Shown here: positions 255 through 47,739 of the stretch, one piece after another
Position numbering within the stretch: the stretch's first letter is position 1
Layout: each line of letters begins with the position of its first letter
Virus record (IMG/VR): IMGVR_UViG_3300042480_000092
Coordinates: 1-47,739 of that record
DNA: 47,739 bases
DNA from: a virus
Direction: 5' to 3' (one strand)
Position numbers and translations under genes: made by a program
The notes under the pieces: model-generated
Seen by the model: only the letters and a program-made list of their open reading frames with translations
The model's database searches: none
What the model was told of the DNA's origin: nothing

Positions 255-1226
255 GTGTTTGATATACTTCAAATAGTTCCAGGAAAGAAAAGACTATCAC
301 AAAGCGGTTGGCATAGTTTCAACGCTGTGTGTTGCCACTACCGAGGTCATGGTGCTGACAAGCGCGGCCGCGGTGGCATACACATGGATAGTGATAACTG
401 GAGTTATCATTGTTTTAATTGTGGATTCAAATGTGGGTTTATGTTGGGTAAACAACTCACTAAGAACACTCGCCAGTTACTGGCGTGGTGCGGCATGGAT
501 CCAGATGATATTAATAAGTATAGCCTAGAAAGTTTGCAACACAAAGACTTGCTAGATTTTGTAAAGGCTAAACGCGAAAAGAAGAAAATTAAATTCAAAG
601 AGATGGATTTGCCTGATGCAGAAGTTATCGATTCTGAAAATCCTAAACACCAAGTTTATGTAGATTATCTACGAGGTCGTAAGATAGATATAAGTAGATA
701 TCCTTTCATGTGTACTCCGGATGAAGAAGGTAGGCAAGCCAATCGTATCATCATACCCTTCACTTTTGAAAATAAAATAGTGGGTCACACTAGCAGGTTC
801 TTAGATGATCGAAAACCTAAATTTATCAGCGAACAACAGAGTGGTTATCTATTTGGTTATGATTTGCAGAAGCCAGAATGGCAAGTATGTATTGTAGTTG
901 AGGGTATATTTGATGCATTGAGTATAGATGGTTGCGCATTGACTACTAATGGTATCAACGAAGAACAGGCAGAGATATTGAGACGTTTGAATAGAAAGAT
1001 CATAGTAGTTCCAGATCAAGATAAGAGTGGTATGGATGTGATCAATCGCGCACTTGATTTTGGTTTTCAAGTTAGCATGCCTAATTGGGAACCGGGAATC
1101 AAAGACGTAAACGATGCAGTAATAAAATATGGCAAACTCGCTACATTACTAAGTATCTTGCAATCAGCGACTAATAGCAAAATAAAATTAGAGATTAAGA
1201 GGAAACAACTTGATAAACGACTATAA
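255..1226 (+). CDS. 61: DNA primase, T4 gp61-like
   Basis: Primase that makes RNA primers for lagging-strand replication in complex with the gp41 helicase. The N-terminus has a zinc-binding set: Cys26, Cys27 and His28 with Cys53 and Cys56 (CFNC). A TOPRIM catalytic core follows, with VVEGIFDAL near residue 214 (catalytic Glu) and VVPDQDKSG near residue 251 (the DxD pair). The length, 323 residues, is close to T4 gp61 (342). The start is GTG: the nearby ATG at 253 is in another frame and soon hits a stop. The 3' end overlaps the helicase start by 17 bases, the expected primase-helicase coupling. Zinc site, TOPRIM core and gp41 neighbour together make the call firm. Confidence 0.9.
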   Translation: MFDILQIVPGKKRLSQSGWHSFNAVCCHYRGHGADKRGRGGIHMDSDNWSYHCFNCGFKCGFMLGKQLTKNTRQLLAWCGMDPDDINKYSLESLQHKDLLDFVKAKREKKKIKFKEMDLPDAEVIDSENPKHQVYVDYLRGRKIDISRYPFMCTPDEEGRQANRIIIPFTFENKIVGHTSRFLDDRKPKFISEQQSGYLFGYDLQKPEWQVCIVVEGIFDALSIDGCALTTNGINEEQAEILRRLNRKIIVVPDQDKSGMDVINRALDFGFQVSMPNWEPGIKDVNDAVIKYGKLATLLSILQSATNSKIKLEIKRKQLDKRL

Positions 1227-2631
1227 CATTGATGTACAGACATTGTTTCTGAGAATGATGGTCACGAACGCAGAACTTTATACTCGCGTGATGAACATCA
1301 TGAATGCAGAAAACTTTGATCGTAGATTGCGACCGGTTGCAGAGTTCATAATAGATCATACTAAAAAATATAATGTCATGCCAGATCCTATACAGATTAA
1401 GGCAACGACTGATGTATCTACTGAACGATTAGAGGAACTTGACGAAGGACATTATGATTGGTTCTTAGAAGAATTCGAAGCATTCACTAAGCGACAAGAA
1501 CTTGAGAGGGCTATTCTTAAGAGTGCAGACTTACTTGAGAAGGGCGAATATGGACCTGTAGAGAAACTGATCAAAGAAGCAGTTCAGATTTCTCTACAGA
1601 AGGATTTAGGTACTGATTACTTTGCTGATCCTCGTAGTAGATTGATGGCACTAAAATCTAATAACGGTCAAAACAGCACAGGTTGGCCTATACTTGATCA
1701 GAAATTGTATGGTGGTTTCAATCGAGGTGAACTGCAAATCTTTGCAGGTGGATCAGGTTCTGGTAAGAGTTTGATCATGCAAAATCTTGCAGTTAATTGG
1801 GCACAAGCGGGACTTAGCGGAGTATACGTCACACTTGAATTGAGTGAAGGATTGTGTTCAATGCGTATTGATAGTATGATGACTGACACTAGTAGTCGCG
1901 AGATTTTTAAAGATATTGATAATGTTGAGATGAAAGTCAAGATGGTTGCTAAGAAGTCTGGTAACTTGCGCATCAAATATATGCCAGCACAAAGCAACGT
2001 CAATGATATCAGAGCATATGTCAAGGAATTACAGATACAGACAGGCATGAAGGTTGACTTCTTGTGTATCGACTATCTTGATTTGATCATGCCAGTCAGC
2101 GCAAAAGTAAGTCCAAGCGACTTGTTCGTAAAGGATAAGTATGTATCTGAAGAACTTAGAAATCTAGCAAAGGAATTAAATGTCTTATTCGTCACAGCAT
2201 CACAACTTAACAGATCAGCCGTTGAAGAGATCGAATTTGATCACAGTCATATCTCAGGTGGTATTAGTAAGATTAATACTGCGGACAATGTTTTTGGTAT
2301 CTTTACTAGCCGTAGTATGCGTGAGCGTGGACTTTATCAGATTCAATTGATGAAGACACGTAGTAGTTCCGGGGTAGGTCAAAAAATCGAACTCAAATTT
2401 GACGTAGAAACATTACGAATCACAGATGACGGATCCGATGATTCCTATAAGGTTCAGCCCTCAGGAGCGCAGTTAATGCAGAAAATCAAGACTACTAGCG
2501 AAGTAGGAACTACTCAGACTGCCGAGAAAACTGATCCTATAACAGGGGAGATAACTCCTGATTCAGGTAAGGTTGTACCCGACGTACAGAGCGCAAAACT
2601 CAAGAGTTTATTGGCGTCACTTAAGAAATAA
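1210..2631 (+). CDS. 41: Replicative DNA helicase, T4 gp41-like (DnaB family)
   Basis: Hexameric 5'-3' replicative helicase that unwinds the fork and partners the primase encoded just upstream. It has 473 residues (T4 gp41 is about 475). The N-terminal helical domain is followed by a RecA-type ATPase core. Walker A is GGSGSGKS near residues 180-187 and Walker B is FLCIDYLDL near 283. A sensor-like VTASQLNRSA and the motif HISGGISKINTADN lie further on, as expected for DnaB-type helicases. The start is TTG at 1210, preceded by AAGAGGAAA. The next ATG lies about 15 codons inside, so TTG is preferred. The last 60 residues are low-complexity and polar, probably a flexible tail. Confidence 0.92.
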   Translation: MINDYNIDVQTLFLRMMVTNAELYTRVMNIMNAENFDRRLRPVAEFIIDHTKKYNVMPDPIQIKATTDVSTERLEELDEGHYDWFLEEFEAFTKRQELERAILKSADLLEKGEYGPVEKLIKEAVQISLQKDLGTDYFADPRSRLMALKSNNGQNSTGWPILDQKLYGGFNRGELQIFAGGSGSGKSLIMQNLAVNWAQAGLSGVYVTLELSEGLCSMRIDSMMTDTSSREIFKDIDNVEMKVKMVAKKSGNLRIKYMPAQSNVNDIRAYVKELQIQTGMKVDFLCIDYLDLIMPVSAKVSPSDLFVKDKYVSEELRNLAKELNVLFVTASQLNRSAVEEIEFDHSHISGGISKINTADNVFGIFTSRSMRERGLYQIQLMKTRSSSGVGQKIELKFDVETLRITDDGSDDSYKVQPSGAQLMQKIKTTSEVGTTQTAEKTDPITGEITPDSGKVVPDVQSAKLKSLLASLKK

Positions 2632-2645
2632 AAGATCCTATTCCA

Positions 2646-2653
2646 GATAAATA
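2646..2653 (+). promoter_or_regulatory. T4-type late promoter box GATAAATA
   Basis: The GATAAATA octamer has the T4 late box at positions 2-8. The predicted +1 is near 2659, just ahead of the AAGGAAAG ribosome site of the gene at 2670. It marks the switch from early replication genes to the head-protein cluster. TTCC (2641-2644) could pair weakly with GGAA (2660-2663) across the box. Confidence 0.6.
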
Positions 2654-2669
2654 CTGTAAGGAAAGAACT

Positions 2670-2918
2670 ATGCAAAAGCGTACCCGTAGCCTTCTAGAAG
2701 AACTGGAATTGATCGGTAATAACCGTGATATGAATCACATCATTGAGAGCAGGGCTCACAATGTTATTACCAGTGCCATTAATCTATTAGAATTAATCAA
2801 TCGTCAATACTCCCCAGACAAAGCCGAAGTACTTGAGAAAAAACTATTAAGTGCTATCAAGGGCAAGGACGCGGCAAGGTTCGCTAAGTCACTGAGGAAG
2901 AAAGATGAGAATCAATGA
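2670..2918 (+). CDS. Small conserved-type phage protein, unknown function
   Basis: 82 residues, strongly helical and charged (LLEELELIGNNRD near the start; a Lys/Arg-rich C-terminus ending RKKDENQ). No enzyme motif, signal peptide or membrane segment is seen. It has a good ribosome site (AAGGAAAG) and its own late box, and its last codons overlap the next head-type gene by 14 bases. This suggests a late protein made together with the head-targeted protein that follows. I do not recognise the family. Confidence 0.7.
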   Translation: MQKRTRSLLEELELIGNNRDMNHIIESRAHNVITSAINLLELINRQYSPDKAEVLEKKLLSAIKGKDAARFAKSLRKKDENQ

Positions 2919-4122
2919 GTTAAATACGTTCCAGAATCTCGCTAGAGGTCTGGCCGGTACAGTCGCATCAGCGCAAGGTACTAATACACAAGGTGTAGGT
3001 AGTGCTATGGCAAGAGCCAAGAAGTCAGGATTAAGTGCAGAAGATCAACTGGCACAGGATACATTCGTACAAAAATTCGTTAGTAGAGGTGCTAATGCGT
3101 TAAACACTGCTATTCAGCAGGGACTGGTAGACGTTGATTCAACTGATTTAGGAGCCGGTAATGCAACAGCACAACCCACTACGCCGAGCGCAGGAACAAC
3201 ACCTAGCGCACCTCAAGCAGGAGGAACAGCAACACAAGCCCCCGGTACTGCCGCAGGTGCCCAACCCGGTGCCGCCCCGCCAGTAAAGGCTGTACAGCCC
3301 GGAGGTAAAGCACCCGGTAATCAAGCAGTACCTACTGGTCAAAAGCAGGGAGCAGCCAAGCCAGAAATTGATGTCAATGTAGATAAGATTGTTAGCGCAA
3401 TGAGAAAGTTACAGCCAGCCGGAACTAAACCGCTTCCTCCAACATCAAAAATAGCACAAGAAATTACTAAGGATCTTGCAAATGTTGCCCTTAATAAGGA
3501 TTACTTGATACGTGTAGGCGACAAGATTCTTAAGTTAGACAACGCTGGTTACGATGTTAAAAACTTGCACCAGCAGTTCATGGGTCAATATGCTAAGGGA
3601 AATAAGCAAAAAACTATTAGCGAAGATAGACTAGAAGAGATTTACAATAAGTTAACGTCAGTAGAAAGATTTAGAAACGCATTGAAGAAATCAGGATATG
3701 ATCCTGATCTAGCGGTCAAGCGCATAGAGGCATTGATCGCAAAACAAAAGAAAGAAAGAGAAGATAGAGATAAGTTCTTAAGAACTAATGAAGGTATCAT
3801 GGATAAGATCAAGGGCGTGTTTAAGCGTCCGGGTCAACCAGCAGCCGCAAGCACTGCCCCAGCACAAGGCGCAGCACCGGCAGCAGGTCAACCAGCAGCA
3901 CCATCAGGTAAACCTAGCCTAGGCGCATGGTTCCGCGATAATTTCATGAAGGGCTTCTTGAGAGGGATCAATTTAGGATCCTCACAGCAACAGGTTGATG
4001 ACATACTAAAACGTATGCCACAAAGTTTAAAGGGTAAAACCTTGAACAAAGACTTGACTGATATAGCACAAATTGCTTGGGCTGTTTCAGACCAAGGTAG
4101 AAAACAAGACACTCAACCTTAA
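2905..4122 (+). CDS. Ala/Pro/Gln-rich putative internal head protein with capsid-targeting N-terminus
   Basis: 405 residues. It begins MRINEL, in which INE matches the (I/L)xE cleavage rule of the T4 gp21 prohead protease; T4 capsid-targeting peptides have this form. Two low-complexity linkers rich in Ala, Pro, Gly, Gln and Thr (about residues 90-150 and 310-335) flank a helical charged core (about 155-300), and a second folded segment follows (about 340-395). No catalytic motif is visible. The start at 2905 follows a GAGGAAG ribosome site. The N-terminus and neighbours suggest a protein carried into the prohead, but this is inference; the linkers would also suit a tail or scaffold protein. 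Confidence 0.6.
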   Translation: MRINELNTFQNLARGLAGTVASAQGTNTQGVGSAMARAKKSGLSAEDQLAQDTFVQKFVSRGANALNTAIQQGLVDVDSTDLGAGNATAQPTTPSAGTTPSAPQAGGTATQAPGTAAGAQPGAAPPVKAVQPGGKAPGNQAVPTGQKQGAAKPEIDVNVDKIVSAMRKLQPAGTKPLPPTSKIAQEITKDLANVALNKDYLIRVGDKILKLDNAGYDVKNLHQQFMGQYAKGNKQKTISEDRLEEIYNKLTSVERFRNALKKSGYDPDLAVKRIEALIAKQKKEREDRDKFLRTNEGIMDKIKGVFKRPGQPAAASTAPAQGAAPAAGQPAAPSGKPSLGAWFRDNFMKGFLRGINLGSSQQQVDDILKRMPQSLKGKTLNKDLTDIAQIAWAVSDQGRKQDTQP

Positions 4123-4123
4123 A

Positions 4124-5296: not shown

Positions 5297-5322
5297 CCAA
5301 ACCAACATTTTTTTGTGCCAGG

Positions 5323-5330
5323 CATAAATA
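5323..5330 (+). promoter_or_regulatory. T4-type late promoter box CATAAATA
   Basis: CATAAATA with predicted +1 near 5336. It drives the monocistronic gene at 5374, which is closed by a strong terminator. Confidence 0.7.
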
Positions 5331-5336
5331 ATAGTA

Positions 5337-5353
5337 TGAGACAGTAGGTCTCA
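5337..5353 (+). promoter_or_regulatory. 5' leader hairpin of late mRNA
   Basis: TGAGAC (5337-5342) pairs perfectly with GTCTCA (5348-5353) around the loop AGTAG. The stem begins about one base after the predicted late transcription start. It is followed by CATTAGGAGATTTTAAA and the start codon, so the ribosome site (AGGAG) is left free. A 5'-terminal hairpin of this kind would be expected to protect the mRNA. Confidence 0.6.
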
Positions 5354-5373
5354 CAACATTAGGAGATTTTAAA

Positions 5374-5754
5374 ATGGCACAATTTACAAGAGTTAATGGT
5401 GATCTTAAGCCAGTTCTATGGTTAGATCAGCCAGATTACACAAATTCAGGCGTTAACGCAGTTTCTTCAGCCTTGACAGTTCAGCCACAAGGTCCAAAGT
5501 TGGACTTCTTCACTGCAACTGCAAACGGTGCTTTGACAACTACACAAGTTAACTCAGCAATTCAAGCGATTCAGCAATTAGCAACTATCCACATCTATGA
5601 GTATACAGACGCAGCTAACGACACATTAGCATTCGCTATATACCCAACTGGTGCATGGACACCTGCTGCTCTAGTATTAGCACTAGAGAACGCAGATGGT
5701 CCCGCTTGGGCAAATGCTGTAACTGTAGCATCATCAGCAACTTTCACTAACTAA
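5374..5754 (+). CDS. Putative abundant virion protein
   Basis: 126 residues, rich in Ala, Thr, Val and Asn, with predicted beta strands (GPKLDFFTAT, TIHIYEYTDA, LAFAIYPTG) and a helix around VNSAIQAIQQLA. No known enzyme motif is present. It has an individual late box, a 5' leader hairpin, an ideal AGGAG ribosome site and a rho-independent terminator immediately after. That arrangement suits a monocistronic, highly expressed structural or decoration protein. I do not recognise a T4 counterpart; Soc- or Hoc-type decoration is possible but unsupported by sequence. Confidence 0.65.
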   Translation: MAQFTRVNGDLKPVLWLDQPDYTNSGVNAVSSALTVQPQGPKLDFFTATANGALTTTQVNSAIQAIQQLATIHIYEYTDAANDTLAFAIYPTGAWTPAALVLALENADGPAWANAVTVASSATFTN

Positions 5755-5780
5755 TCATTAGTTTAAGTTAACAAACAAAG

Positions 5781-5811
5781 GACCCGAGATTTATTCTCGG
5801 GTCTTTTTTTT
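5781..5811 (+). terminator. Rho-independent terminator
   Basis: GACCCGAGA (5781-5789) and TCTCGGGTC (5795-5803) form a perfect 9-bp stem with a 5-base loop, followed by eight T residues. It ends the gene at 5374. A late box (5814-5821) starts almost directly after the T-tract. Confidence 0.92.
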
Positions 5812-5813
5812 GC

Positions 5814-5821
5814 CTTAAATA
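5814..5821 (+). promoter_or_regulatory. Late promoter box (CTTAAATA) placed for a leaderless start
   Basis: CTTAAATA begins 13 bases before the ATG at 5827. In T4 the late box spans about -13 to -6, so the predicted +1 coincides with the A of this ATG. No Shine-Dalgarno sequence precedes the ATG; the T-tract of a terminator lies there instead. Confidence 0.5.
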
Positions 5822-5826
5822 ACAAC

Positions 5827-6279
5827 ATGCACAGGATTTCCTGCTATACGTTATTTGACATTACAAAGACAGGTGTATTGAATCGCGCAAGGCCGGGGGA
5901 TGATGTAAAAGATGTGAATGATTGGTATAGAAATCGCAACACACAATGCAATTTTGATACTATATTGCAAGTTATATCATTGCGAGCCCAGCCCGATGTC
6001 ATCAACGATCCTGTGCGGTTAGAGATTGATTTAGATAAAGAGTCATATTTCGGAACTATGCTACAAGAAGATATCAGAGTTCCTGTATGGAAGTTTGATT
6101 TTGAAGTACAGCATAATCGTGTGTTTGAAGATGGAATTTCTGATTTAGGATCATTATATAAAGATTGTGACGGGGTGCCCATGATTCAATGTGATAGTCA
6201 ATGGCACAAGTCAGGACAAAAACTTGATATAACTTTGGAAAAAAGGAACATATATTTTGTTAAATATGAATATGAATAA
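5827..6279 (+). CDS. Conserved-type T4-like phage protein, unknown function
   Basis: 150 residues beginning MHRISCYTLFDITKTGV. I believe this N-terminus recurs in hypothetical proteins of T4-like marine phages, but I cannot assign a function. The middle (VRLEIDLDKESYFGTML) is beta-rich and the C-terminus (KLDITLEKRNIYFVKYEYE) is strand-like. There are no membrane segments or catalytic motifs. It is separated from the preceding gene by a terminator and begins where a late mRNA is predicted to start. Its 3' end overlaps the next gene, so the two are probably co-translated. Confidence 0.7.
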   Translation: MHRISCYTLFDITKTGVLNRARPGDDVKDVNDWYRNRNTQCNFDTILQVISLRAQPDVINDPVRLEIDLDKESYFGTMLQEDIRVPVWKFDFEVQHNRVFEDGISDLGSLYKDCDGVPMIQCDSQWHKSGQKLDITLEKRNIYFVKYEYE

Positions 6280-6724: not shown

Positions 6725-6733
6725 CAGATTCTT

Positions 6734-6741: not shown

Positions 6742-6766
6742 TAACTATTAATGTGGGATTTTAACC

Positions 6767-14890: not shown

Positions 14891-14920
14891 AAAACGGGGC
14901 TTAGGCCCCGTTTTTATTTT
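14891..14920. terminator. Bidirectional rho-independent terminator
   Basis: AAAACGGGGC (14891-14900) and GCCCCGTTTT (14905-14914) form a perfect 10-bp stem with a TTAG loop. A T-rich tract follows on the plus strand, and on the minus strand the stem is followed by TTTTACTA. It separates the plus-strand gene at 14562 from the converging Nudix gene and overlaps the last codons of the latter. Confidence 0.9.
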
Positions 14921-15317
14921 CAGTAAGGCTCTTCAGTTTCTCTTTTACTATATCAATATTGATAGTACTGAATAACCCAGGATGCATTGGTTTAGGATGT
15001 TGATCAGCCCCTATCCAAGCATAACCCACATGCTCATCGTTGAGATAGGGAACAAATTCTTCATCGACTGCACAAAAGAACGTATGGTAGGTGAAACTAT
15101 TATTAACGAACTTTTGTATGGGTACTAATTTTGGATCAGTAGGCCAGAAATTTACTTCTTCCATACACTCGCGTTCTAGCCCTTCTAGCAACGTCTCACC
15201 CTGTTCAATTTTACCGCCCGGCACACCCCAAGCAAAATTGGCATCACTACGCATCAGATATAGAAATCTGCCCGTTGTAGTACAATAAAAGAATATGCCA
15301 GCCGAAGTATTTTTCAT
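14901..15317 (-). CDS. Nudix hydrolase (MutT-like)
   Basis: 138 residues. The Nudix box is nearly complete: Gly35, Glu41, Arg49-Glu50, Glu53-Glu54, in the form GGKIEQGE...RECMEEVNF. The only departure is Asn56 where Gly is usual. The flanking sequence (FLYLMRSDANFAWGVPGG; YHTFFCAVDEEFVPYLN) is typical of MutT/NUDT-type nucleoside-diphosphate-linked hydrolases. It would hydrolyse a nucleotide derivative, linking it to nucleotide metabolism with MazG and dNMP kinase in this window. The gene has its own extended -10 promoter, and the start codon lies at the predicted +1 without a ribosome site. Confidence 0.9.
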   Translation of the reverse strand: MKNTSAGIFFYCTTTGRFLYLMRSDANFAWGVPGGKIEQGETLLEGLERECMEEVNFWPTDPKLVPIQKFVNNSFTYHTFFCAVDEEFVPYLNDEHVGYAWIGADQHPKPMHPGLFSTINIDIVKEKLKSLTENKNGA

Positions 15318-15323: not shown

Positions 15324-15352
15324 ATTATAGCAAAAACAATATTAAATGACAA
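15324..15352 (-). promoter_or_regulatory. Extended -10 sigma70-type promoter for the Nudix gene
   Basis: Read on the minus strand, TTGTCA (15352-15347) is followed after 17 bases by TATAAT (15329-15324), with the extended -10 form TGCTATAAT. Six bases lie between the -10 and the ATG (15317-15315), so the predicted +1 is the start codon. The -35 lies inside the end of the gp15-like gene. Confidence 0.7.
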
Positions 15353-16727: not shown

Positions 16728-18458
16728 TTATGGTTGGGGCGGTAGAATGTCTGGTGCTAATTCCAAGATACTTGATAATGGTTGTGCAGAAGGTATCACT
16801 TGCTCTTGGTTGTTGTTATATATCACACCTTCATTATTAATGAATTGTGACTTTTGTGCTTGATCGTCTGCTGTAAATCCAGTTTCTGTTCGTACATTAG
16901 TGCTTATGCGAACCCATAGTTTTCCATCCCAACGATATAATATCTGCGGCATGTAATCGATACGCAAGAAGTAATCACCTACTTGAGGATTTTGCGGGAA
17001 CGCTATACCTGCACCACTTGGGTATCCGTTAGGTGCAGTACCGTCTCCTGTGAGATATCCTGCTTCATAGCCGAAACTTCTTGGGCTTGCGCGACTGATA
17101 TATTGATATGCTGGATCGCAGTCTGCACGATAGTCCATAGTATTTGGACCATATGGCTCTGTACCGGTGAATCCTGATTGAGTAGGATCCTGATCAGCAG
17201 TAGCATATGTGTTGTCAGCAGTACCGTATGGTCCAGTGACTGGACCTAAAGACATCACTGATAATACCTTATTACCTTCTAACGCACCTGATCCGCTACC
17301 CTCACGTAATTGCATTGGAGCAGTCTCAGTCACTTCTATGTTTGCCTGCACGTGGACATCCATCTTAGTGATAGACATATCCGCAGTCATATCCCATATG
17401 CTCTTTAATAATTCTTTGCTTACTTTGATTCCTGCGCTAGGATTCTTGAATTTAGGATTGCGCATGAAAACTACAGTACCAAATGACCCTGTGCTTGGTG
17501 CGCCGCCGCTGTAAGTGACTACATTGATAGGTGGTGCGGGCTGATTTAGTTTACCTGATAATGTGTTATTAGTCTCATAGATACCGTATGTAGGAACAAC
17601 ATACAGGTCTTTGTTGTTGTAACCTGTTTTGGGTAATATGCGTTTTGCTTCTTCAAGTTGCGCGTTATTAATCTCAATGTTCTTATTATATGTTGACAAG
17701 ATATCTTTGAGATTTTGATTAGGATCAAGTTGCCAATATGTTGGATTAGGTGGCGCGATGCCTGCTGGCACCTCAATCAAACTTATATAATTCTTATCTC
17801 CATATGTGATTACATATCCAGGAGGATATACTTTATCTTTGTCCCAAGGACCCAACCAATTGTCTTTGTTGATTGGTTCTGTTAATATCTGTGTAAATTC
17901 TTGACTATCTACTAATGGCTCACACTTAATACGCCATAAGTGTGGATACCATGTCTGACTGAAACCTTCGCTAGCGAAGTTGGCGTCTGTTATGCTATAG
18001 AAACGTTTCAATGCTACCGGTATCGTTTCTTTCAATGGATTGTAATCTAACAAGTGAGGTAATTCTAATACGTCACCGACCATCAATTTGCGACCAATGA
18101 TATCGATCATGTCGTTATAATGAACTGCGATGAATATGATGTCGTTGTTTAAGAATAATCCGAACTGGCTGAGGTCAAAGTCTAGATTCTGTACGCTATA
18201 ATGTCCACGCAATCTATAAATGTTAGGATCGTAAACTCTATCGCGATTTTCCAAAAACAATAGATCCTGTATCTGTGTAGGATCGGGACTAACATATTGG
18301 GGTTGTGTATAGTCTGCACTAGGGGTCTGAGCGTTAGGACCCATGTATTTGTGTATATAAAGATCGGTACCGCCAACAGTCAGTTGCTCCGAAATGGTCT
18401 TATCGAAGAACTTGTAATCGTTAGTTTTGGTTGGATGATATAGCGATAATTTGGGCAT
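16728..18458 (-). CDS. 14: Neck protein, T4 gp14-like
   Basis: 576 residues from the ATG at 18458 (MPKLSLYHP), longer than T4 gp14 (256). The first 200 residues carry the recognisable core: VGGTDLYIHKYMGP, YSVQNLDFDLSQFGLFLNND, KLMVGDVLELPHLLDYN and KRFYSITDAN, corresponding in order to T4 gp14 segments. The rest is a long extension with Pro/Gly-rich stretches. It joins the neck ring under the head. A TTG eight codons upstream is possible, but the ATG sits at the predicted late +1. gp15 follows on the same strand, supporting the assignment. Confidence 0.65.
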   Translation of the reverse strand: MPKLSLYHPTKTNDYKFFDKTISEQLTVGGTDLYIHKYMGPNAQTPSADYTQPQYVSPDPTQIQDLLFLENRDRVYDPNIYRLRGHYSVQNLDFDLSQFGLFLNNDIIFIAVHYNDMIDIIGRKLMVGDVLELPHLLDYNPLKETIPVALKRFYSITDANFASEGFSQTWYPHLWRIKCEPLVDSQEFTQILTEPINKDNWLGPWDKDKVYPPGYVITYGDKNYISLIEVPAGIAPPNPTYWQLDPNQNLKDILSTYNKNIEINNAQLEEAKRILPKTGYNNKDLYVVPTYGIYETNNTLSGKLNQPAPPINVVTYSGGAPSTGSFGTVVFMRNPKFKNPSAGIKVSKELLKSIWDMTADMSITKMDVHVQANIEVTETAPMQLREGSGSGALEGNKVLSVMSLGPVTGPYGTADNTYATADQDPTQSGFTGTEPYGPNTMDYRADCDPAYQYISRASPRSFGYEAGYLTGDGTAPNGYPSGAGIAFPQNPQVGDYFLRIDYMPQILYRWDGKLWVRISTNVRTETGFTADDQAQKSQFINNEGVIYNNNQEQVIPSAQPLSSILELAPDILPPQP

Positions 18459-22936: not shown

Positions 22937-23569
22937 ATGATTGTAGGAATCGCTGGGTTTATAGGTAGCGGCAAAGACACAGTAGCAGATTATTTGATTC
23001 GATTTAAGGGCTTTCAGCGAATGAGTTATGCTGGACCCCTCAAGGATGCAGTAGCAAGTATTTTTGGTTGGGATCGTGAATTGCTAGAAGGTAGCACACG
23101 ATATAGTAGAGAATGGAGAGATCAAGTAGATCCTTGGTGGTCAGAAAGACTAGATATCAAGCATTTGACACCTCGCTGGGTACTTCAACAATGGGGAACT
23201 GAAGTGGGTCGTAGGGCTTTCCATGACGATATCTGGATCGCTAGCATAGAAAACAAGTTGCGCGGTATACGTAATAATGTAGTAATCAGTGATTGCAGAT
23301 TCCCCAATGAACTTAAGGCTATCAAACGTGCAGGTGGTACTACTATACGTGTATTTAGGGGACAAAATCCCCCATGGTATGATGCTGCCGTGACATTCAG
23401 CAAAGGGTTTTATAGTCCCGGGTATAAGTCTGCTGTAGAGATATTAGAAAAGCACAATGTTCATGCTAGCGAATATAGTAGTGTGGGCTTAGAGTATGAC
23501 TGTTATATCGATAATAACGGAACAATCGATGATCTACATAGGAAAGTCGATCTAATAATCAACTTGTAA
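22937..23569 (+). CDS. 1: Deoxynucleoside monophosphate kinase, T4 gene 1-like
   Basis: 210 residues. A P-loop is present at residues 7-15 (GFIGSGKDT). The segment YAGPLKDAVASIFGW and the motif ISDCRFPNELKAIK (near 118-131) are characteristic of phage dNMP kinases of the gene 1 type. It would phosphorylate dNMPs, including the modified ones, to feed phage DNA synthesis. It has its own early promoter and a ribosome site (AAAGGGCC). Its 3' end overlaps a minus-strand gene by 18 bases, so the two genes converge. Confidence 0.85.
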   Translation: MIVGIAGFIGSGKDTVADYLIRFKGFQRMSYAGPLKDAVASIFGWDRELLEGSTRYSREWRDQVDPWWSERLDIKHLTPRWVLQQWGTEVGRRAFHDDIWIASIENKLRGIRNNVVISDCRFPNELKAIKRAGGTTIRVFRGQNPPWYDAAVTFSKGFYSPGYKSAVEILEKHNVHASEYSSVGLEYDCYIDNNGTIDDLHRKVDLIINL

Positions 23570-23905
23570 GTCACCCCTCTTCCAAGTGACTCGTTGACGT
23601 TTTACTACCTCTACGCAGTTAAGACATATAGACCTTAGATTACTGAATATGGTATTTCTGAGGTCTCCGTCTATGTGAAACACCGTCATCTGTGCGGGAT
23701 ATATGCTTTGAAAGCCGCATATGTCACATATCGCTTTCTTCTTGTATCCTGCTCGTACCCAATTAGTAGGTCTTGCTTTAACTTTATTTTTCTTTTTGCC
23801 GCATTCATCACATATACTGCGGTAATGCTTCACCCCGTCGCGGATATAATTAATCGCCCTAGGGTTCTTGTTACATTGCTTGCATATCGGCCTAATGAGT
23901 CCCAT
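23552..23905 (-). CDS. HNH-type zinc-ribbon protein (putative endonuclease)
   Basis: 117 residues on the minus strand. Zinc pairs Cys8/Cys11 and Cys32/Cys35 come first. A second unit follows with Cys60/Cys63, FHIDGD (His77), Asn84 or Asn89 and Cys94/Cys97 (NLRSICLNC), the pattern of an HNH (treble-clef) nuclease. It lacks a clear second catalytic His, so activity is uncertain. It converges on and overlaps the dNMP kinase gene. The predicted late +1 is its ATG. It may be a free-standing homing-type endonuclease or a packaging-linked HNH protein. Confidence 0.65.
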   Translation of the reverse strand: MGLIRPICKQCNKNPRAINYIRDGVKHYRSICDECGKKKNKVKARPTNWVRAGYKKKAICDICGFQSIYPAQMTVFHIDGDLRNTIFSNLRSICLNCVEVVKRQRVTWKRGDLQVDY

Positions 23906-23918: not shown

Positions 23919-23964
23919 AAATAACCTTCGAAGGTCTCATTGTCCTCACTTTTTTGATATCTAT

Positions 23965-29920: not shown

Positions 29921-30358
29921 ATGGCAAATTTTGCTCAAGGCCGTTATCACGTAAGAAATAAACAAAAGTATATAGGCAAAGGCGCGCCTAAATATCGTTC
30001 GGGTTGGGAACTAACATTTATGATGTTTTGTGATAATCACGATAGCGTCATTCAATGGGCTAGCGAGTCTATTCAAATCCCATATAGAAATCCGTTAACG
30101 GGAAAACAAACTATATACATACCTGACTTCTTTGTATTATACCAAGACAAATTGGGACAGCAGAAAGCAGAAGTAGTAGAGATCAAACCTAAGAAACAAA
30201 GCCTAATTGAGAGCAGAGTGGCTAGCGCAAAAGACAGAGCAGTGGTAGCACTTAATCATGCAAAATGGGCAGCGGCGATGGCCTATTGCAAAAGGATAGG
30301 TTGTACCTTTAGAGTAATCACCGAAGATGATTTGTTCTATAAGGGTAAACGCAAATAA
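29921..30358 (+). CDS. 4: Head completion nuclease, T4 gp4-like
   Basis: 145 residues (T4 gp4 is 150). The pattern is a near match: KYRSGWELTFMMF, WASESIQIPY, then Asp69 (IYIPDFF) and Glu87-x-Lys89 (VEIKPKK), with Trp-Lys-Ala-Ala-like helix and a C-terminal RVITEDDLFYKG. These are the D-ExK nuclease-fold residues shared by T4 gp4 (also called gp50/65). The protein is needed to finish DNA-filled heads. It sits directly before the small terminase, so packaging genes are grouped. Confidence 0.88.
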   Translation: MANFAQGRYHVRNKQKYIGKGAPKYRSGWELTFMMFCDNHDSVIQWASESIQIPYRNPLTGKQTIYIPDFFVLYQDKLGQQKAEVVEIKPKKQSLIESRVASAKDRAVVALNHAKWAAAMAYCKRIGCTFRVITEDDLFYKGKRK

Positions 30359-30361
30359 ATA
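30354..30361 (+). promoter_or_regulatory. Late promoter box (AATAAATA) near the gene 16 start
   Basis: AATAAATA begins 12 bases before the ATG at 30366, inside the 3' end of gene 4. The predicted late +1 lies at the start codon, one base from exact. There is no ribosome site after the box. Confidence 0.45.
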
Positions 30362-30365: not shown

Positions 30366-30848
30366 ATGACTAGAAAACTTGAAGAACTGTTCAACTTGTC
30401 CCAAGACGAAGAAAAATCTGAAGAATTTCAACTTCCACCTGAGACACAAGAGATTACAGTATCAGCATTAAACAACCTTGAGAAGATAGAAAATGCTCTA
30501 CCTCAAGTGCGCGGACTTGAGACGGCTGACGTAGAGATGGATCAATTAGCGGACCTAGCACAGAGTAGTTATAAAGACTTGATGGATCTAGGTATGCAGG
30601 TTGATAGCCGCTTTAGCAGTGAGATTTTCGGGGTAGCCGGAACCATGCTAGGACATGCGATTACTGCTAAGACTGCTAAAGTAAGCAAGAAACTCAAGAT
30701 GATTGAGTTACAATTGAAGAAGGCAGCACTGGATCAGAAGCAGTCAAGCAAGGACAAGGAGATTGACAATACTCCTTTAGGGGAGGGTAAATCGTTAGAT
30801 AGAAACGAGATACTTAAGGCACTCCTAGACAAAAAGACGGATAAATGA
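30366..30848 (+). CDS. 16: Terminase small subunit, T4 gp16-like
   Basis: 160 residues from the ATG at 30366 (T4 gp16 has 164); an upstream frame in gene 4 is rejected. It contains an N-terminal acidic part and a long helical core, SSYKDLMDLGMQVDSRFSSE then FGVAGTMLGHAITAKTAKV-SKKLKMIELQLKKAALDQ, matching the gp16 core helices and coiled coil. The C-terminus (LDRNEILKALLDKK) may contact the large terminase. It regulates DNA packaging. No large terminase (gp17) follows, unlike T4. Confidence 0.7.
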   Translation: MTRKLEELFNLSQDEEKSEEFQLPPETQEITVSALNNLEKIENALPQVRGLETADVEMDQLADLAQSSYKDLMDLGMQVDSRFSSEIFGVAGTMLGHAITAKTAKVSKKLKMIELQLKKAALDQKQSSKDKEIDNTPLGEGKSLDRNEILKALLDKKTDK

Positions 30849-33912: not shown

Positions 33913-33920
33913 GATAAATA
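33913..33920 (+). promoter_or_regulatory. T4-type late promoter box GATAAATA for the fibre block
   Basis: GATAAATA with predicted +1 near 33926, before the ATG at 33944. A second GATAAATG overlaps the start codon. Confidence 0.68.
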
Positions 33921-33943: not shown

Positions 33944-36739
33944 ATGGCACAAAGAAACATTGACTTCGGTAGTTTTCCTGATGATCCAGACGCAGATGCG
34001 ATCCGCGCCGCGTTTCAAAAGACACAAGAAAACTTCTCTGAACTATTCCAATTACAAAATTCGCAAGGCGTTCTATCTATCAATAGAACCAAGCAACCCG
34101 GCATTTCCGTCAATTCGCCTACCGGAAACATATTACTATCCGCAGATTTTAGTCGATTAAACGTCACTACTACTAGTCTAGAAATAGGGCTGGCACCCGA
34201 TACATTGGGTTATGCTACTTCGGTTAATAATGCGTCACAAACCCTATATATAGATTTACGTCCGGACACATTCATAGGCAATTCGTTATACATAGGTACA
34301 CCGAATGCTGCCCCTAACGTATACATAACTAACGGTAATGTAACTGCTAATAACATAAGCGTAGGCAATGTAATTGCTGCCAATAGAGCAAACATTATCG
34401 GTAATGTGATTGCTAGCAATATCACAGCAAACATAAATGTTAATACATCTAACTTGATTGCTACCGGTACTGCTAACATTACAACTGCCAACATTACAAC
34501 TGTAATCGTAACAGGTAACTTAACATCAGGTAATGCGAATTTAGGAAATCTAGCCAGAGCAAATTATGTAAATGTTGCTAATGATTTAAATGTCAGCGGT
34601 AACATATCTATTGATGGTAATATAGAAGTAAGCAATGTCGTAGCAGGTAACGTTACCTTAGATGGCAATCTAAGAATATCAAATACTAATCCTGCTTATG
34701 GAGTGTTGACTGACAAGTTATATTATTCTAATGGTCAACCTTGGGACTTGCAAGAACCAGCCGGTGCTAATTTTGATATTCAATTTAATGTTAATAATCA
34801 GTTCTCGGCATCATCTAATTTAAAATTCAATCCTACAACAAATAATCTAAATGTTGTGGGTAATGTGATTGCCACGTACTTCAGCGGTGATGGTGGTGGT
34901 CTATCAAACATACAAGGCAACATCAGTTCTATCAATAACGGTAGTTCAAATGTAGTAGTAAGACCAAATGCTAATGTGACTATATCAGTTAGCGGAACTC
35001 CAAATGTTGTTACTGTTACTAACACATCGTTGATTGTTGCAGGTAGCGTCAATACTAATGACTTATATTCAAGTGGCGAAGTAGAAGCCGTAACGTTACG
35101 CGGTGACGATCTAGTAGTAACACAATCTGCTGACTTAGGCGATCTAGGTGATATAACTATCCTAGGCGGCAGTCCTAACTATACAATCATCACAGACGGT
35201 GCAGGTAACTTAAGTTGGGTACAACCACTAGTAGGTGCGACAGGTCCGATTGGTGCTACAGGATTGACAGGATCCACTGGTGCTACGGGAACACCGGGCA
35301 TAAATGGCAGTACTGGTCCTACAGGACCTACTGGCGCTACTGGTATTCCTGGTGACATATATTCTACAACTAGCAGTACTTCAATTTTAATTGGTCTTGG
35401 GCTGAAAACATTTACCGTCGGTACAAATTTAGCCTATTCTTTGGCTCAAAAAGTTGTAATAGCAACTAGTATATCAGATTATATGATAGGTGATGTCCAA
35501 TCATATAATTCAATAACAGGCTTGATGTCTGTAGACGTTGAATCTATATCAGGCGGTGGTACATATACATCATGGGATGTTAACTTATTTGGCGCGGTAG
35601 GTCCTCAAGGTTCTACAGGAGCGACTGGTGCTACTGGTGTAGCCGGCATAGTTGAAGGCCCTACGGCACCACCTGATACTACTGTATTGTGGTATGACAC
35701 AAGCACACCCGGTATAGATGGAGTAGGCGCAACTGGCGCAACTGGTATTCAAGGTGCAACTGGCTCAGGTGCCACTGGAGCAACTGGTGTTCAAGGTGCT
35801 ACGGGACTAGGAGCAACCGGTGTTCAAGGTGCTACTGGCGTAGTAGGACCAACTGGTGCAACAGGTGTAGGTGCTACAGGTATAACAGGTCCTACTGGTG
35901 CAACAGGCCCGGCTGGTTCTACATACTTACATACTCAAGCGTCTGCATCAACCACATGGACTGTCAATCATAACCTCGACGACAAATATGTTAACGTAGA
36001 ACCAGTAGATAGTGCTAACGTGAGTTATGTTGGTCGTTATGATTATCCAACTATCACATTTGTTGACAATAACAATTTAACCTTAACATTCACCACTGCA
36101 GTGGCTGGATATGCTGCTATATCTTCAGGTGGTAGTATAGGTGCTACTGGTATAACAGGTGCAACAGGTCCTTCTGGTGGTCCAACAGGCGCTACTGGAT
36201 TGACAGGACCTACTGGAGCGACGGGCGTAGGTGCTACAGGTATAGCAGGTCCTACAGGGGCTACTGGCGTGCAGGGCGCGACAGGCCCATCTGGCTCAGT
36301 AGCAGGATCGAACACTGAAGTTCAATTCAATGATGCCGGTACTCAAGCCGGTGACACAGGATTTACATATAATAAAACTACTGATACTCTAACAGTAGCA
36401 GGTAACATAGTAGCGCAGACACATTATATAAGAAGTGTTGCCGCTAGTGTTAGTGCGGCAGGTAGTGTGCAAGGTGATGCTACAGCATTGGCAAAAGACA
36501 TCAACGTAGTAACATCAGTAAGTGCAGGACAAGGAGTTAGATTGCCGACAGCCACAGCAGGTATGGTATTGATTGTAAACAATACAAGTGTGAACAGCAT
36601 GAACGTATATCCTGCGGCAGGTGCCGCAATAAACGGCCTAGCAACCAATGCGGCATACACACATGTTTCGAATGCAAGTTTACAATACTATGCGATAAGT
36701 TCAAGTCAGTGGTATACAGTCGGGGCAAGTTACTCTTGA
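33944..36739 (+). CDS. Collagen-like fibre protein A
   Basis: 931 residues. The N-terminal domain (RNIDFGSFPDDPDADAIRAAF ... QENFSELFQ) is typical of T4-like fibre or baseplate proteins. Then follow many short Asn-rich repeats (NVIAANRANIIGNVIASNI; residues about 110-420), collagen-like Gly-X-Y stretches (GATGLTGSTGATG, and from about 600 on), and one WTVNHNL module (about 660-730). The C-terminus (QFNDAGTQAGDTGFTYNKT ... GVRLPTATAGMVLIVNN) is shared with the genes at 39332 and 44545. It is a probable trimeric fibre with collagen stalks. Confidence 0.75.
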   Translation: MAQRNIDFGSFPDDPDADAIRAAFQKTQENFSELFQLQNSQGVLSINRTKQPGISVNSPTGNILLSADFSRLNVTTTSLEIGLAPDTLGYATSVNNASQTLYIDLRPDTFIGNSLYIGTPNAAPNVYITNGNVTANNISVGNVIAANRANIIGNVIASNITANINVNTSNLIATGTANITTANITTVIVTGNLTSGNANLGNLARANYVNVANDLNVSGNISIDGNIEVSNVVAGNVTLDGNLRISNTNPAYGVLTDKLYYSNGQPWDLQEPAGANFDIQFNVNNQFSASSNLKFNPTTNNLNVVGNVIATYFSGDGGGLSNIQGNISSINNGSSNVVVRPNANVTISVSGTPNVVTVTNTSLIVAGSVNTNDLYSSGEVEAVTLRGDDLVVTQSADLGDLGDITILGGSPNYTIITDGAGNLSWVQPLVGATGPIGATGLTGSTGATGTPGINGSTGPTGPTGATGIPGDIYSTTSSTSILIGLGLKTFTVGTNLAYSLAQKVVIATSISDYMIGDVQSYNSITGLMSVDVESISGGGTYTSWDVNLFGAVGPQGSTGATGATGVAGIVEGPTAPPDTTVLWYDTSTPGIDGVGATGATGIQGATGSGATGATGVQGATGLGATGVQGATGVVGPTGATGVGATGITGPTGATGPAGSTYLHTQASASTTWTVNHNLDDKYVNVEPVDSANVSYVGRYDYPTITFVDNNNLTLTFTTAVAGYAAISSGGSIGATGITGATGPSGGPTGATGLTGPTGATGVGATGIAGPTGATGVQGATGPSGSVAGSNTEVQFNDAGTQAGDTGFTYNKTTDTLTVAGNIVAQTHYIRSVAASVSAAGSVQGDATALAKDINVVTSVSAGQGVRLPTATAGMVLIVNNTSVNSMNVYPAAGAAINGLATNAAYTHVSNASLQYYAISSSQWYTVGASYS

Positions 36740-39331: not shown

Positions 39332-41605
<2,274 letters not shown>

Positions 41606-41617
41606 TGGGGGTAACAT

Positions 41618-44503: not shown

Positions 44504-44516
44504 GGTTTTGAGGATA

Positions 44517-44524
44517 CATAAATA
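44517..44524 (+). promoter_or_regulatory. T4-type late promoter box CATAAATA
   Basis: CATAAATA with predicted +1 near 44530. It is followed by TAGGATAACG and the ATG at 44545. Confidence 0.68.
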
Positions 44525-44544
44525 CAATAGGATAACGAAACGAT

Positions 44545-46782
44545 ATGAGTACGATTAATACAAACAGCATCGATGCAAATTACCCAATTCCTGGACAGAA
44601 TAATAGCACCCAGGGATTCCGTAATAACTTCGCCACCATCAAAAACAACTTAGGTATTGCTGGGTCTGAGATCACTGATCTTCAAAACAATGCTGTATTA
44701 AAAGCACCATTAGCCAATACTTCATTAAACAATGACATGGCTAATGCACTCATATCTAATGCTAGCGTTTTAGGTTTTCGCTCTACTACGTATAATTTAG
44801 GTAATGCCCTCACTAATTTAGTGACTGTGGACTTGTCACTGGGCGATGTGCAGTATGGAAATCTATCAGGAAACGTTTTACTACAATTCGGTAATTGGGC
44901 TCCTACACAAACACAAAGCAACGTCACACTACAGATAGGACGTCCTAATGCTCAAGCAGACTTCTCTATCACGTTCCCAGCAGAAGCAGTCTTTGAAAAT
45001 AACTATGGTTGGACATTGACCGAGAACAGTTCAAATCCAAATGGCGCTGTCACATTGAGTTTTCCTTATGATGTGACACAATTAAATCTATTAGTATCAA
45101 GCGTAGATTGCGGCAATACATTATATGTTCAGCCTATCAATAGACCTATGCAGACTGCACAAGTTCAGAAAAGAACTCCGCCAACAACTGGTCAGTTAGG
45201 TGATGTTATAGGCACTGTCTGTGTCAGTGACTTAACAGCGTCTACATTAGATATCACTACATCTACTGCGACTGATTACTTAGTAACCACTAGTACAACT
45301 GCACTATATCCCGGCATACCTGTAGTCTTCACAGGTAATAGTTTTGAACCAAACATTGTGTCTGGTGCTACTTATTACGTAAGCAATGTCGCGAACGCTA
45401 CTCATTTCAAAATCTCATCTGATTTTCAGGCTGCAAGTAATATAAATCTTGTAGGCGGCACAGGAAACTTTACATTAAATCCTGTAAGTTACATGTTTGT
45501 TGCTGTGGATAATTATTCAGGAAATAGTTTTGACAAGAACGTTATATCAACAACAAGCCCTAACGTTATCGGTGTCGATCCTGCTTCGGGTATGACTCAC
45601 ATAGCAGTCAATTATCCTATCATATTCACTGGCGCCGGTACAGCCAATGCTAATGTCACAGCCGGCGAAGTATATTATGTAAAGTCAGTATCTGGCACTA
45701 GTATTACTATCAGCAAAACTATAGATAATGGCATTGCTGGTCCAACATATGAAGGTGTATTGACTCACATTCCTGATTCTTCTTATCCATTAGACTTTAC
45801 GGTTTATGAAGGTAAGAACATATTCAGACAGATACCGTTGATACCTGGTACAGAGACTACGACTAGCGCGGTCATTCCTAATATTGCTGATATACGTATC
45901 GGTGGTGGAGTGAATGGTTATTTCTTGGTCACAGATGGCACCGGTAATCTAGCATGGTCTGCTGGTGGCGGATCTGGTAGCGGGGTGGTTGCTGGTTCTA
46001 ACACGCAAGTACAATTTAACAATGCAGGCACTTTCGGTGCGGCAGCAGGCTTCACATATAATAATGTTACTAATGTTCTGTCTGTTCCCGGTAACATAGT
46101 ATCCGGTGGTACATTACAAGGTAGTAATATTAATGCTACAGCAAACCTATCAGTCACAGGAACTGCAAACCTATTAGGTAATGTCAACATAGGCGGCAAT
46201 ACATTAGTAGGTAATTTAACTTCAGGCACACAGATTGTTTCTAACGGCAATGTAATCGCAAATGCGATATATGCACTGAGCCTAGTCAGTTCAGCAAATG
46301 CAGGTATCTTCGGTAACGTCATAGCAGGCACTGCTAATATAGCAGGTGCAGTTAATTGTGTAGATGTTATTGCTAACGGAAATTCAATATTCGGCAACAT
46401 AGAGGTATCAGGGCAAGTAGCAGTCACCGGTAATATATTCTCAAATGCTAATATATTGGCAAACGGCTTCTACGTATCAGGAGTCACTACAGGTATCGTA
46501 GCGACAGGTAGCACACAGGCTGATGCTGCCAATCTACTAGCATCCATCAATATCGTACAAACCGTTACTAGCGGTAGCGGTGTTAAATTACCAGCCGCTC
46601 AGGCAGGTTTAAGAATCATCGTAAGAAATATCAATGCTACCAACGCACTAAAGGTATATCCTAACACTGGAGCAAGGATAGACTTATTGGCAGTCAACAC
46701 AGCATACTCATTACCAATCAATACTAACATAGAATTGTATTGCGCAGTGGGCGGTGCGACGGGCCAATGGTATATATTATAA
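44545..46782 (+). CDS. Fibre/baseplate protein D with shared C-terminal domain
   Basis: 745 residues. The N-terminus (NSIDANYPIPGQNNSTQGFRN) is a pattern common in T4-like virion proteins that fit on a baseplate or fibre. The middle is beta-rich. The C-terminal third (GSNTQVQFNNAGTFGAAAGF ... Asn-rich NVIA/NIFSNAN repeats ... GVKLPAAQAGLRIIVRN) is clearly related to the fibre proteins at 33944 and 39332. Unlike those it lacks collagen-like runs and a WTVNHNL module. It has its own late promoter. Confidence 0.72.
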   Translation: MSTINTNSIDANYPIPGQNNSTQGFRNNFATIKNNLGIAGSEITDLQNNAVLKAPLANTSLNNDMANALISNASVLGFRSTTYNLGNALTNLVTVDLSLGDVQYGNLSGNVLLQFGNWAPTQTQSNVTLQIGRPNAQADFSITFPAEAVFENNYGWTLTENSSNPNGAVTLSFPYDVTQLNLLVSSVDCGNTLYVQPINRPMQTAQVQKRTPPTTGQLGDVIGTVCVSDLTASTLDITTSTATDYLVTTSTTALYPGIPVVFTGNSFEPNIVSGATYYVSNVANATHFKISSDFQAASNINLVGGTGNFTLNPVSYMFVAVDNYSGNSFDKNVISTTSPNVIGVDPASGMTHIAVNYPIIFTGAGTANANVTAGEVYYVKSVSGTSITISKTIDNGIAGPTYEGVLTHIPDSSYPLDFTVYEGKNIFRQIPLIPGTETTTSAVIPNIADIRIGGGVNGYFLVTDGTGNLAWSAGGGSGSGVVAGSNTQVQFNNAGTFGAAAGFTYNNVTNVLSVPGNIVSGGTLQGSNINATANLSVTGTANLLGNVNIGGNTLVGNLTSGTQIVSNGNVIANAIYALSLVSSANAGIFGNVIAGTANIAGAVNCVDVIANGNSIFGNIEVSGQVAVTGNIFSNANILANGFYVSGVTTGIVATGSTQADAANLLASINIVQTVTSGSGVKLPAAQAGLRIIVRNINATNALKVYPNTGARIDLLAVNTAYSLPINTNIELYCAVGGATGQWYIL

Positions 46783-46785
46783 TGT

Positions 46786-47019
46786 ATGGAACACCCATTC
46801 ATTAACGATCTCTCAGATAAAACAATAGAACAGTTGCAAGACACGATTTCTAGTTTGCACCAAAAGTTAACCTTCGCATACAGAACCGGTAATGGTCCAT
46901 TGATACATCAGATAAAGATGGTAATTGAAAGTTATCGATCTGAGTATCAAAAGAAGATCAATGAAATGATCAAGAAACAAAATATCGAAGGTCAAGTGAG
47001 AATCACTAAAGAAGGTTGA
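46786..47019 (+). CDS. Small helical protein, unknown
   Basis: 77 residues, charged and helical (DKTIEQLQDTISSLHQKLTF; KINEMIKKQNIEGQVR), probably a short coiled coil. Its ATG follows the preceding stop by three bases, without a clear ribosome site. It is probably translated by coupling to the fibre gene. No family is recognised. Confidence 0.65.
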   Translation: MEHPFINDLSDKTIEQLQDTISSLHQKLTFAYRTGNGPLIHQIKMVIESYRSEYQKKINEMIKKQNIEGQVRITKEG

Positions 47020-47020
47020 T

Positions 47021-47566
47021 ATGTCAAGTAAGATACAAAAAGAGTTTACGTTTATGACTGCTGTGCATTTCGGCGACAAGTATATGGTAAACTTATATGA
47101 GATGACTGCTATAATGACTATTAATACATTAGACGCTAACGATCAAAATATAGCAGTAGAAAGAATAACTCATTTTATAGGTAGTGTTATTGAAGATTGT
47201 ATATTCGTCTGTGACAAAGAGAAAGATGCTATAGACAAATATAACAAAGCGGGTATGAAGGTTTGCCTCGTACCTGAAGAACCATACGATCAAATCGTAG
47301 GTTTGATATTGATGAATAAATGCAACGCTATCATGGAAGAGAGAATCATTATGACTGATATCGTTTTTGGTAGCAAACTAAGCAATCTCATCAAGTTTGA
47401 ATTATCAAATGAAACCGCAGAAGCAGAATTTAGCGGTAATCACTGGTGGAACACATCCACTATGTGTGTGCAGATACAAAAAAACAAAAAGGATAAGATC
47501 GTTAATTTATTTGACCATAAATCTGATGATTGGGCAGAGTTAGAGTTGACTTGGACGGGAAAATAG
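47021..47566 (+). CDS. Unknown phage protein
   Basis: 181 residues. The N-terminus (SSKIQKEFTFMTAVHFGDKY) and a central alpha/beta part (CIFVCDKEKDAIDKYNKAGM; PEEPYDQIVGLILMNKCN) are followed by the more polar FSGNHWWNTSTMCVQIQ segment. No known catalytic motif is seen. It begins one base after the previous stop with a TTGATATG context. I believe similar proteins occur in T4-like marine phages but cannot assign a role. Confidence 0.65.
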   Translation: MSSKIQKEFTFMTAVHFGDKYMVNLYEMTAIMTINTLDANDQNIAVERITHFIGSVIEDCIFVCDKEKDAIDKYNKAGMKVCLVPEEPYDQIVGLILMNKCNAIMEERIIMTDIVFGSKLSNLIKFELSNETAEAEFSGNHWWNTSTMCVQIQKNKKDKIVNLFDHKSDDWAELELTWTGK

Positions 47567-47574
47567 CGTATCAT
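47546..47574 (+). promoter_or_regulatory. Sigma70-type promoter placed for a leaderless start
   Basis: TTGACT (47546-47551), a 17-base spacer and TATCAT (47569-47574), both one mismatch from consensus. Six bases lie between the -10 and the ATG at 47581, the same spacing as at 255 and 15317. No ribosome site is present. Confidence 0.55.
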
Positions 47575-47580
47575 TATAAG

Positions 47581-47739
47581 ATGCGCAAAGATGTCTATGG
47601 TCAATTGATATATGATGAGAATGATCTCTGCGACCTTTACCTGAAAGATCCCGAAAAAAAGTTATATAGAGTTTTATTGGAATCGGAAGTACTGTTTCCT
47701 GAAGTTTTAGATTTAGTAGAAGTACCACAATTTATACAT
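47581..47739 (+). CDS. N-terminal part of an unknown early protein (cut by window edge)
   Basis: 53 residues to the right edge with no stop. It begins MRKDVYGQLIYDENDL and contains DLYLKDPEKKLYRVLLE and LFPEVLDLVEVPQFI. It is acidic with alternating helices. Its promoter spacing suggests an early, leaderless transcript. The partial sequence does not allow a family assignment. Confidence 0.55.
   Translation, partial: MRKDVYGQLIYDENDLCDLYLKDPEKKLYRVLLESEVLFPEVLDLVEVPQFIH

Follow-up and report, generated by a model that had tools for sequence, protein, structure and literature searches.

The window analysed here is the whole of IMG/VR virus record IMGVR_UViG_3300042480_000092 (47,739 bases), and our subject is seven of its genes whose start codons coincide, to within about one nucleotide (nt), with the predicted transcription start (+1) of the promoter just upstream, so that their mRNAs would be leaderless. 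A scan of 30 of its proteins identified T4-type genes, namely primase, DnaB-like helicase, tail sheath, tail tube, head closure, head-tail adaptor, MazG and dNMP kinase. When the first 25 kilobases (kb) were compared by megablast with a phage collection, the sole match was 41 bases long, in two records of one cyanophage. The isolates that match the virion protein of gene 18458 are large phages, including PA5oct, Atu_ph07, Phosso, GAP32 and RaK2, at 34–42% identity over the matched part. In IMG/VR the number of relatives closer than these isolates is at least 597, of which the best 80 were kept. Our main comparison set is made up of the window and seven relatives, eight records with 1,263 distinct genes in all; apart from the window and two large relatives, G001 and G002, the remaining five are partial. 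A wider locus set consists of the window and 160 loci (1,071 distinct genes).

Four of the seven genes are preceded by a T4-type late box. On the plus strand, CTTAAATA at 5814..5821 spans −13 to −6 of the ATG of a predicted leaderless gene (5827..6279) that has no PHROG match at an expectation value (E) of 0.001. On the minus strand the same placement is seen for ACTAAATA at 18471-18464, before a virion structural protein gene (16728..18458; phrog_11591), and for AATAAATA at 23918-23911, before a gene with a weak match to an HNH endonuclease family (23552..23905; phrog_10822, E 3e-5); in all three cases 13 nt separate the beginning of the box from the ATG. The fourth box, again AATAAATA, lies at 30354..30361 (+), 12 nt from its beginning to the ATG and thus at −12 to −5, before a gene of phrog_16202 (30366..30848, +), whose function is unassigned in PHROG. 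As a leadered comparator, the box at 33913..33920 (+) lies 23 nt before the ATG at 33944, with a GGTG motif. Two further features were seen near such boxes. Upstream of the 23905 box there is a palindrome, ACCTTCGAAGGT (23924-23935), and ACCTTCGAAGGT or ACCTTTAAAGGT is found in many relatives, with a longer hairpin in its place in some distant ones. At 5323-5355 a late box is followed at 5 nt by an ATG with three codons only (ATG AGA CAG TAG) and a small hairpin, ahead of gene 5374, which has its own Shine-Dalgarno (SD) sequence; ATAAATAATAGTATG recurs in several relatives.

The other three genes are preceded by σ70-like elements, with 6 nt between the −10 hexamer and the start codon in each. 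The predicted leaderless MutT/Nudix hydrolase gene (14901..15317, −; phrog_1198) has TATAAT at 15324..15329 and TTGTCA at 15347..15352, both on the minus strand (TTGTCA-N17-TATAAT-N6-ATG). Gene 47581 (47581..47739, +), truncated at the contig end and 168 amino acids long in the relative G004, has TATCAT at 47569..47574 and TTGACT at 47546..47551 (TTGACT-N17-TATCAT-N6-ATG), and the same site occurs in G004. These two show the full σ70 form, a TTGACA-like −35 and a TATAAT-like −10 separated by 16–18 nt, and the DNA primase gene (255..1226, +; phrog_47) conforms by its −10 alone (TATAAT at 243..248, +). The primase begins with GTG in the window and with ATG in G001, G002 and another relative, G010; four of seven distinct orthologues have GTG. 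An earlier note on this DNA had drawn attention to these distances in both promoter classes, and the sequence bears them out at all seven starts. Elsewhere in the window, gene 46786 has a TATAAT-like sequence just before its ATG, and its orthologues in G001 and G002 are of the late leaderless type; this gene may be an eighth case.

Could the short spacing be a coincidence of AT-rich sequence or of open reading frame (ORF) calling? The records are AT-rich (GC 0.36–0.41) and any one case could be chance. The earlier note had proposed setting box-to-start spacings against a flat spread, and this comparison, run on the eight records separately for late boxes and strict σ70-like sites, rejects flatness for both. 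With the late box written as [AC]TAAATA and d as the distance from box to ATG, 84 of 273 boxes fall at 4–6 nt against a flat expectation of 13.7 (binomial 3e-42, a nominal value, the genes being related), six at 8–14 nt and 117 at 16–27 nt, the last being the leadered class. The 4–6 nt group is present in all eight records (2, 32, 16, 10, 7, 8, 7 and 5, duplicates included), and this count misses two of the four late cases in the window, one through the strict box and one through ORF calling. The wider locus set is bimodal too, with 39 boxes at 4 nt, 68 at 5 nt, 13 at 6–15 nt and 219 at 16–27 nt. The sparsely filled zone at 8–14 nt is what would be expected if a transcript can do without a leader but, where it has one, must have room in it for an SD sequence.

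Scrambling the box core abolished most of the short-spacing group: 14 scrambles gave 0–7 at 4–6 nt, except ATAAAT, which overlaps true boxes and gave 22. For the wider set a reversed-box control was discarded, ATAAATA being identical backwards, and other scrambles were used instead. An artefact of ORF calling is also unlikely, since a stop codon within TAAATA would favour d = 0, 3 or 6, and the peaks are at 4 and 5; moreover, the same caller yields no [AC]TAAATA box at 4–6 nt from a called ATG in T4, KVP40, Syn9 or RaK2. For the second class we used the fact that the +1 of a σ70 promoter lies six bases after the −10. A strict search (at most two mismatches in the −35 and one in the −10) gave a peak at exactly 6 nt, comprising 26 genes of the clade compared with 5, 6 and 1 for shuffled hexamers and 1 for four isolates.

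Alignment of orthologues on the start codon shows a retained spacing and varying spacer letters. Among distinct upstreams from the 160 loci and the eight records, TAAATA lies 4–5 nt before the ATG in 13 of 13 orthologues of gene 5827, and the box is at 4–6 nt in 47 of 49 for gene 18458 (the other two at 20 nt), in 39 of 41 for gene 23905 and in 33 of 46 for gene 30366 (the other 13 at 19–21 nt). With two mismatches allowed in the −10, a hexamer is found at 6 nt in all seven upstreams for the primase and at 6–7 nt in all six for gene 47581. Omitted from these counts are one 5827 and three 23905 sequences (contig edge or no start) and an uncounted number of hits whose alignment begins after residue 8. 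Together with the bimodal histograms, the scrambled motifs and the absence of such boxes from T4, KVP40, Syn9 and RaK2, this conservation contradicts coincidence, which we regard as exceedingly improbable; the assertion of the earlier note that the arrangement is hard to ascribe to chance therefore holds.

Across the eight records, a looser σ70 rule (at most three mismatches in the −35, with the −10 at 5–7 nt from the start) gives a class of 51 genes, and under it at least one distinct leaderless upstream is found in 88 of 680 protein families and at least two in 25. The families with such members include primase, dNMP kinase (not of the leaderless type in the window), terminase large subunit, an SbcD-like nuclease, an exonuclease and a DnaJ-like protein, the last identified from its N-terminus. 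Orthologous genes can change between leaderless and leadered forms.

Leaderless genes are expected to have a promoter element directly upstream and no SD sequence, and this is the pattern here. Scoring 4-mers or longer matches of AAGGAGGTG at −20 to −3, we find none at six of the seven starts, and the AGGTG at gene 255 sits upstream of the −10, outside the predicted mRNA; in the interval from promoter to start codon, all seven lack an SD-like 4-mer, in agreement with the earlier note, which had also stated that most neighbouring genes do have a ribosome site. A hand count places an SD upstream of 24 of the 39 other candidate genes in the window. Across the eight records, an SD match of four or more bases precedes 3 of the 96 late genes and 2 of the 51 σ70 genes of the leaderless class (5 of 147 together). 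In the leadered late class it precedes 78 of 131, and among all other genes 483 of 985. Leaderless genes also prefer AUG as the 5′-terminal start codon. Among frames open for at least 60 codons that begin 4 or 5 nt after distinct boxes this preference is evident, with 86 ATG, two GTG and two TTG, compared with 10 ATA, five ATT and two ATC.

The box might itself act in translation, as an A/U-rich enhancer before the ATG rather than as a promoter, and A/U-rich leaders can indeed help initiation. Several observations speak against this. The same box stands 16–27 nt before leadered genes; at gene 5827 it comes after a terminator; and the σ70 hexamers show a matching +1 spacing. The box also agrees with the T4 late promoter box, TATAAATA, which the consulted portion of PMC1524935 places at −13 to −6, and we consider the enhancer explanation very unlikely. 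That published position puts the A of the ATG at +1 when d = 5, and the predicted late-leaderless starts carry a TATAAATA-like box at −13 to −6, its position relative to the actual +1 being a prediction. Among leadered genes the proportion of A peaks, at 57%, on the fifth base past the box. The +1 predicted from T4 falls one base later, and the position of +1 is therefore uncertain by about 1 nt.

A different question is whether the proteins are mainly made from longer read-through transcripts, the transcript from the box being minor or non-productive. In favour of this, 62 of the 96 late genes of the leaderless class and 47 of the 50 σ70 ones have a co-directional neighbour upstream, and the longer transcripts may therefore also be translated; at gene 30366 the box even shares bases with the stop codon of the preceding gene (end 30358). 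At gene 5827, on the other hand, an intrinsic terminator with a 13-pair stem and a T run (5777..5807, +; fold −23.6 kcal/mol, z −8.62) lies directly upstream of the box. A distance of about 15 nt, with the late box in it, separates the end of its T run from the ATG; in relatives a similar hairpin and T run, with altered stems, was seen by eye. The starts of genes 18458 and 23905 lie in divergent gaps. The upstream neighbour is divergent in 34 of 96 genes of the late-leaderless class, compared with 18 of 129 in the leadered late class and only 3 of 50 in the σ70 class, and there are terminator-like upstreams for 7 of 96 late-leaderless and 3 of 129 leadered late genes. Longer transcripts that lack an SD would moreover require translational coupling, and orthologues retain the spacing. 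Read-through as the main source of translation is thus improbable, if less so than the enhancer.

Taken together, the comparison argues that the window and its relatives very probably have conserved leaderless mRNAs alongside ordinary leadered genes, the start codon being the +1 of two promoter classes. Some findings weigh against this conclusion, the co-directional neighbours among them. Gene 255 has a good −10 only, its −35 being weak. Gene 15317 is the weakest of the seven: of 47 distinct upstreams among its orthologues, only 24 have a spacing of 5–6 nt, and no site was found in the other 23. The 51-gene σ70 class stems from a loose rule of unquantified background, and the strict peak comprises only 26 genes. 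A pyrimidine at −1, tried as a mark of the +1, is non-discriminating (80% of late-leaderless, 74% of leadered late and 47% of σ70 genes). Raw counts of box-N5-ATG against the reversed control are raised in some isolates (4 to 0 in T4, 11 to 6 in PA5oct, 7 to 3 in Atu_ph07), an excess that gives no peak before called genes. Finally, the 5′ ends are themselves predicted from the promoters. The leaderless interpretation of the earlier note is nonetheless supported by the spacing, the orthologues, the rarity of SD sequences and the terminator before gene 5827.

We propose that the start codon would serve as the transcription start, with a tolerance of about 1 nt, both for host-type σ70 promoters, presumably early, and for TAAATA promoters, presumably late and presumably read with a gp55-like phage sigma. 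RNA polymerase would start at the A of the ATG, the mRNA would open with a 5′ AUG (GUG for the primase of the window), and translation would proceed without an SD leader, presumably by 70S monosomes that recognise the 5′-terminal start codon. The phage would combine this mode with ordinary leadered genes. Late expression of the T4 type depends on gp55, gp33 and gp45. ORFs resembling gp55 were detected by profile search in G001 (E 2e-13) and G002 (E 2e-15), PA5oct and RaK2 matching too; no match at E 1 was obtained in the window or in the five other, partial clade records.

A broader proposal, which we regard as rather doubtful, is that leaderless starts form a phage-wide translation programme in which early and late mRNAs are made for 70S monosomes or for phage-altered ribosomes, sustaining phage translation as SD-dependent host initiation falls, and that the design arose repeatedly among T4-like phages of aquatic bacteria. 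The ribosomal protein bS21 is phage-encoded in G001 (G001:251015-251167) and in the relative G003 (G003:9110-9265), but also in PA5oct and Atu_ph07, and therefore does not track leaderlessness. Large tRNA arrays are present in G001 (L184, L173) and G002 (L269, L270, L276), with 34 genes in L184, 27 in L269 and 19 in L270; a GOLLD RNA (RF02032, 206 bits) lies within the array of the 352-kb G001 (L184:5415-5881, −). Both relatives have tRNAs with a CUA anticodon (L173:3712-3786 and L277:460-533), possible amber suppressors, and each has a permuted, beta-type transfer-messenger RNA. The latter hints at betaproteobacterial hosts, a group in which leaderless mRNAs are known. Other routes to a host were tried and set aside: 14 pattern matches among contigs of metagenome-assembled genomes (MAGs) contained no relative, and a marine 'Rickettsiales' MAG matched through two contigs, with an identity (46%) insufficient to assign a host. 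Three stretches of that MAG contain nine boxes near a start, 5 of them at a distance of 5 nt and 4 at a distance of 8 nt; over the whole genome the pattern count was barely above the control (42 versus 29).

If our conclusion is right, a T4-like group with at least 597 IMG/VR relatives appears to express core genes, namely terminase, primase and virion proteins, from leaderless mRNAs, under promoters of both host and phage type. This bears on the annotation of gene starts, on the choice of expression host and on whether infection shifts ribosomes towards 5′-AUG recognition.

Among known systems, the T4-type late promoters, which depend on gp55, are described in the part of PMC1524935 consulted with the same box and the same distance to +1 as in the clade. 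T4, KVP40 and Syn9 differ from the clade in having no late box 4–6 nt from a called ATG. Such boxes are also absent from the first 400 of 490 kb of Atu_ph07 and from 80 of 195 kb of phiM12, and PA5oct has one. Unlike in the window, the homologous virion proteins of PA5oct, Atu_ph07, RaK2 and GAP32, which are among the nearest isolates by gene 18458, are leadered, with GGAG or AGGAG in PA5oct, RaK2 and GAP32; spacing in GAP32 was examined by pattern counts only.

Unexpectedly, the arrangement recurs in another lineage. Late boxes exactly 5 nt before the ATG, as in the window, precede 11 called genes in HTVC008M and six in Mosig, both Pelagibacter phages, and three in the Methylophilales phage Melnitz. 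Two of the 11 HTVC008M genes have an SD-like 4-mer upstream of the box or at its edge. The deposited starts match at 9 of 9 HTVC008M sites (in the two stretches read) and at 3 of 3 called Mosig sites, and the DNA end protector gene has this box spacing in all three phages. At HTVC008M 6280 a GC-rich inverted stretch and T run, a late box and an ATG at 5 nt follow one another, by eye the layout of gene 5827. These phages differ from the window in being Kyanoviridae with genomes of 141–147 kb, the boxes of Melnitz and Mosig are mostly leadered, and, unlike in the clade, σ70-like sites at 6 nt are weak (2 in HTVC008M, 3 in Mosig, 0 in Melnitz). HTVC008M and Mosig grow on a cultured host they share, and the claim of leaderless expression is therefore directly testable.

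The cI gene of lambda, transcribed from PRM, likewise has a leaderless mRNA, but it is a single gene. The examined text of PMC5312081 calls phage transcripts 'often leaderless' in passing, AR9's own leaders being 26–491 nt, and in PMC9516812 and PMC9004378 'leaderless' was met only in a reference title. Among the entries listed by our literature search, with subscription journals mostly outside its scope, no title or abstract dealt with T4-type late promoters that give leaderless mRNAs. Leaderless genes are known, as are promoters of the T4 type, but none of the entries listed showed the two regularly combined across two classes of promoter. In bacteria, excerpts of PMC4603805 report for Burkholderia cenocepacia 72 genes whose transcription begins at the first base of the start codon and 42 where it begins no more than 10 nt away, tRNAs accounting for 24 of these transcripts, with a TA-rich promoter motif directly upstream in place of the SD, and those of PMC7563307 give leaderless transcripts as 4.67% of primary starts in Cupriavidus metallidurans. 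Leaderless mRNAs are thus a small minority in these two mapped betaproteobacteria. The genes described here resemble them in a 5′ end at or near the start codon, mapped in the bacteria and predicted in the phages, but where the bacterial cases are few, a partly loose sequence rule assigns 147 of 1,263 distinct phage genes to this type, from two promoter classes.

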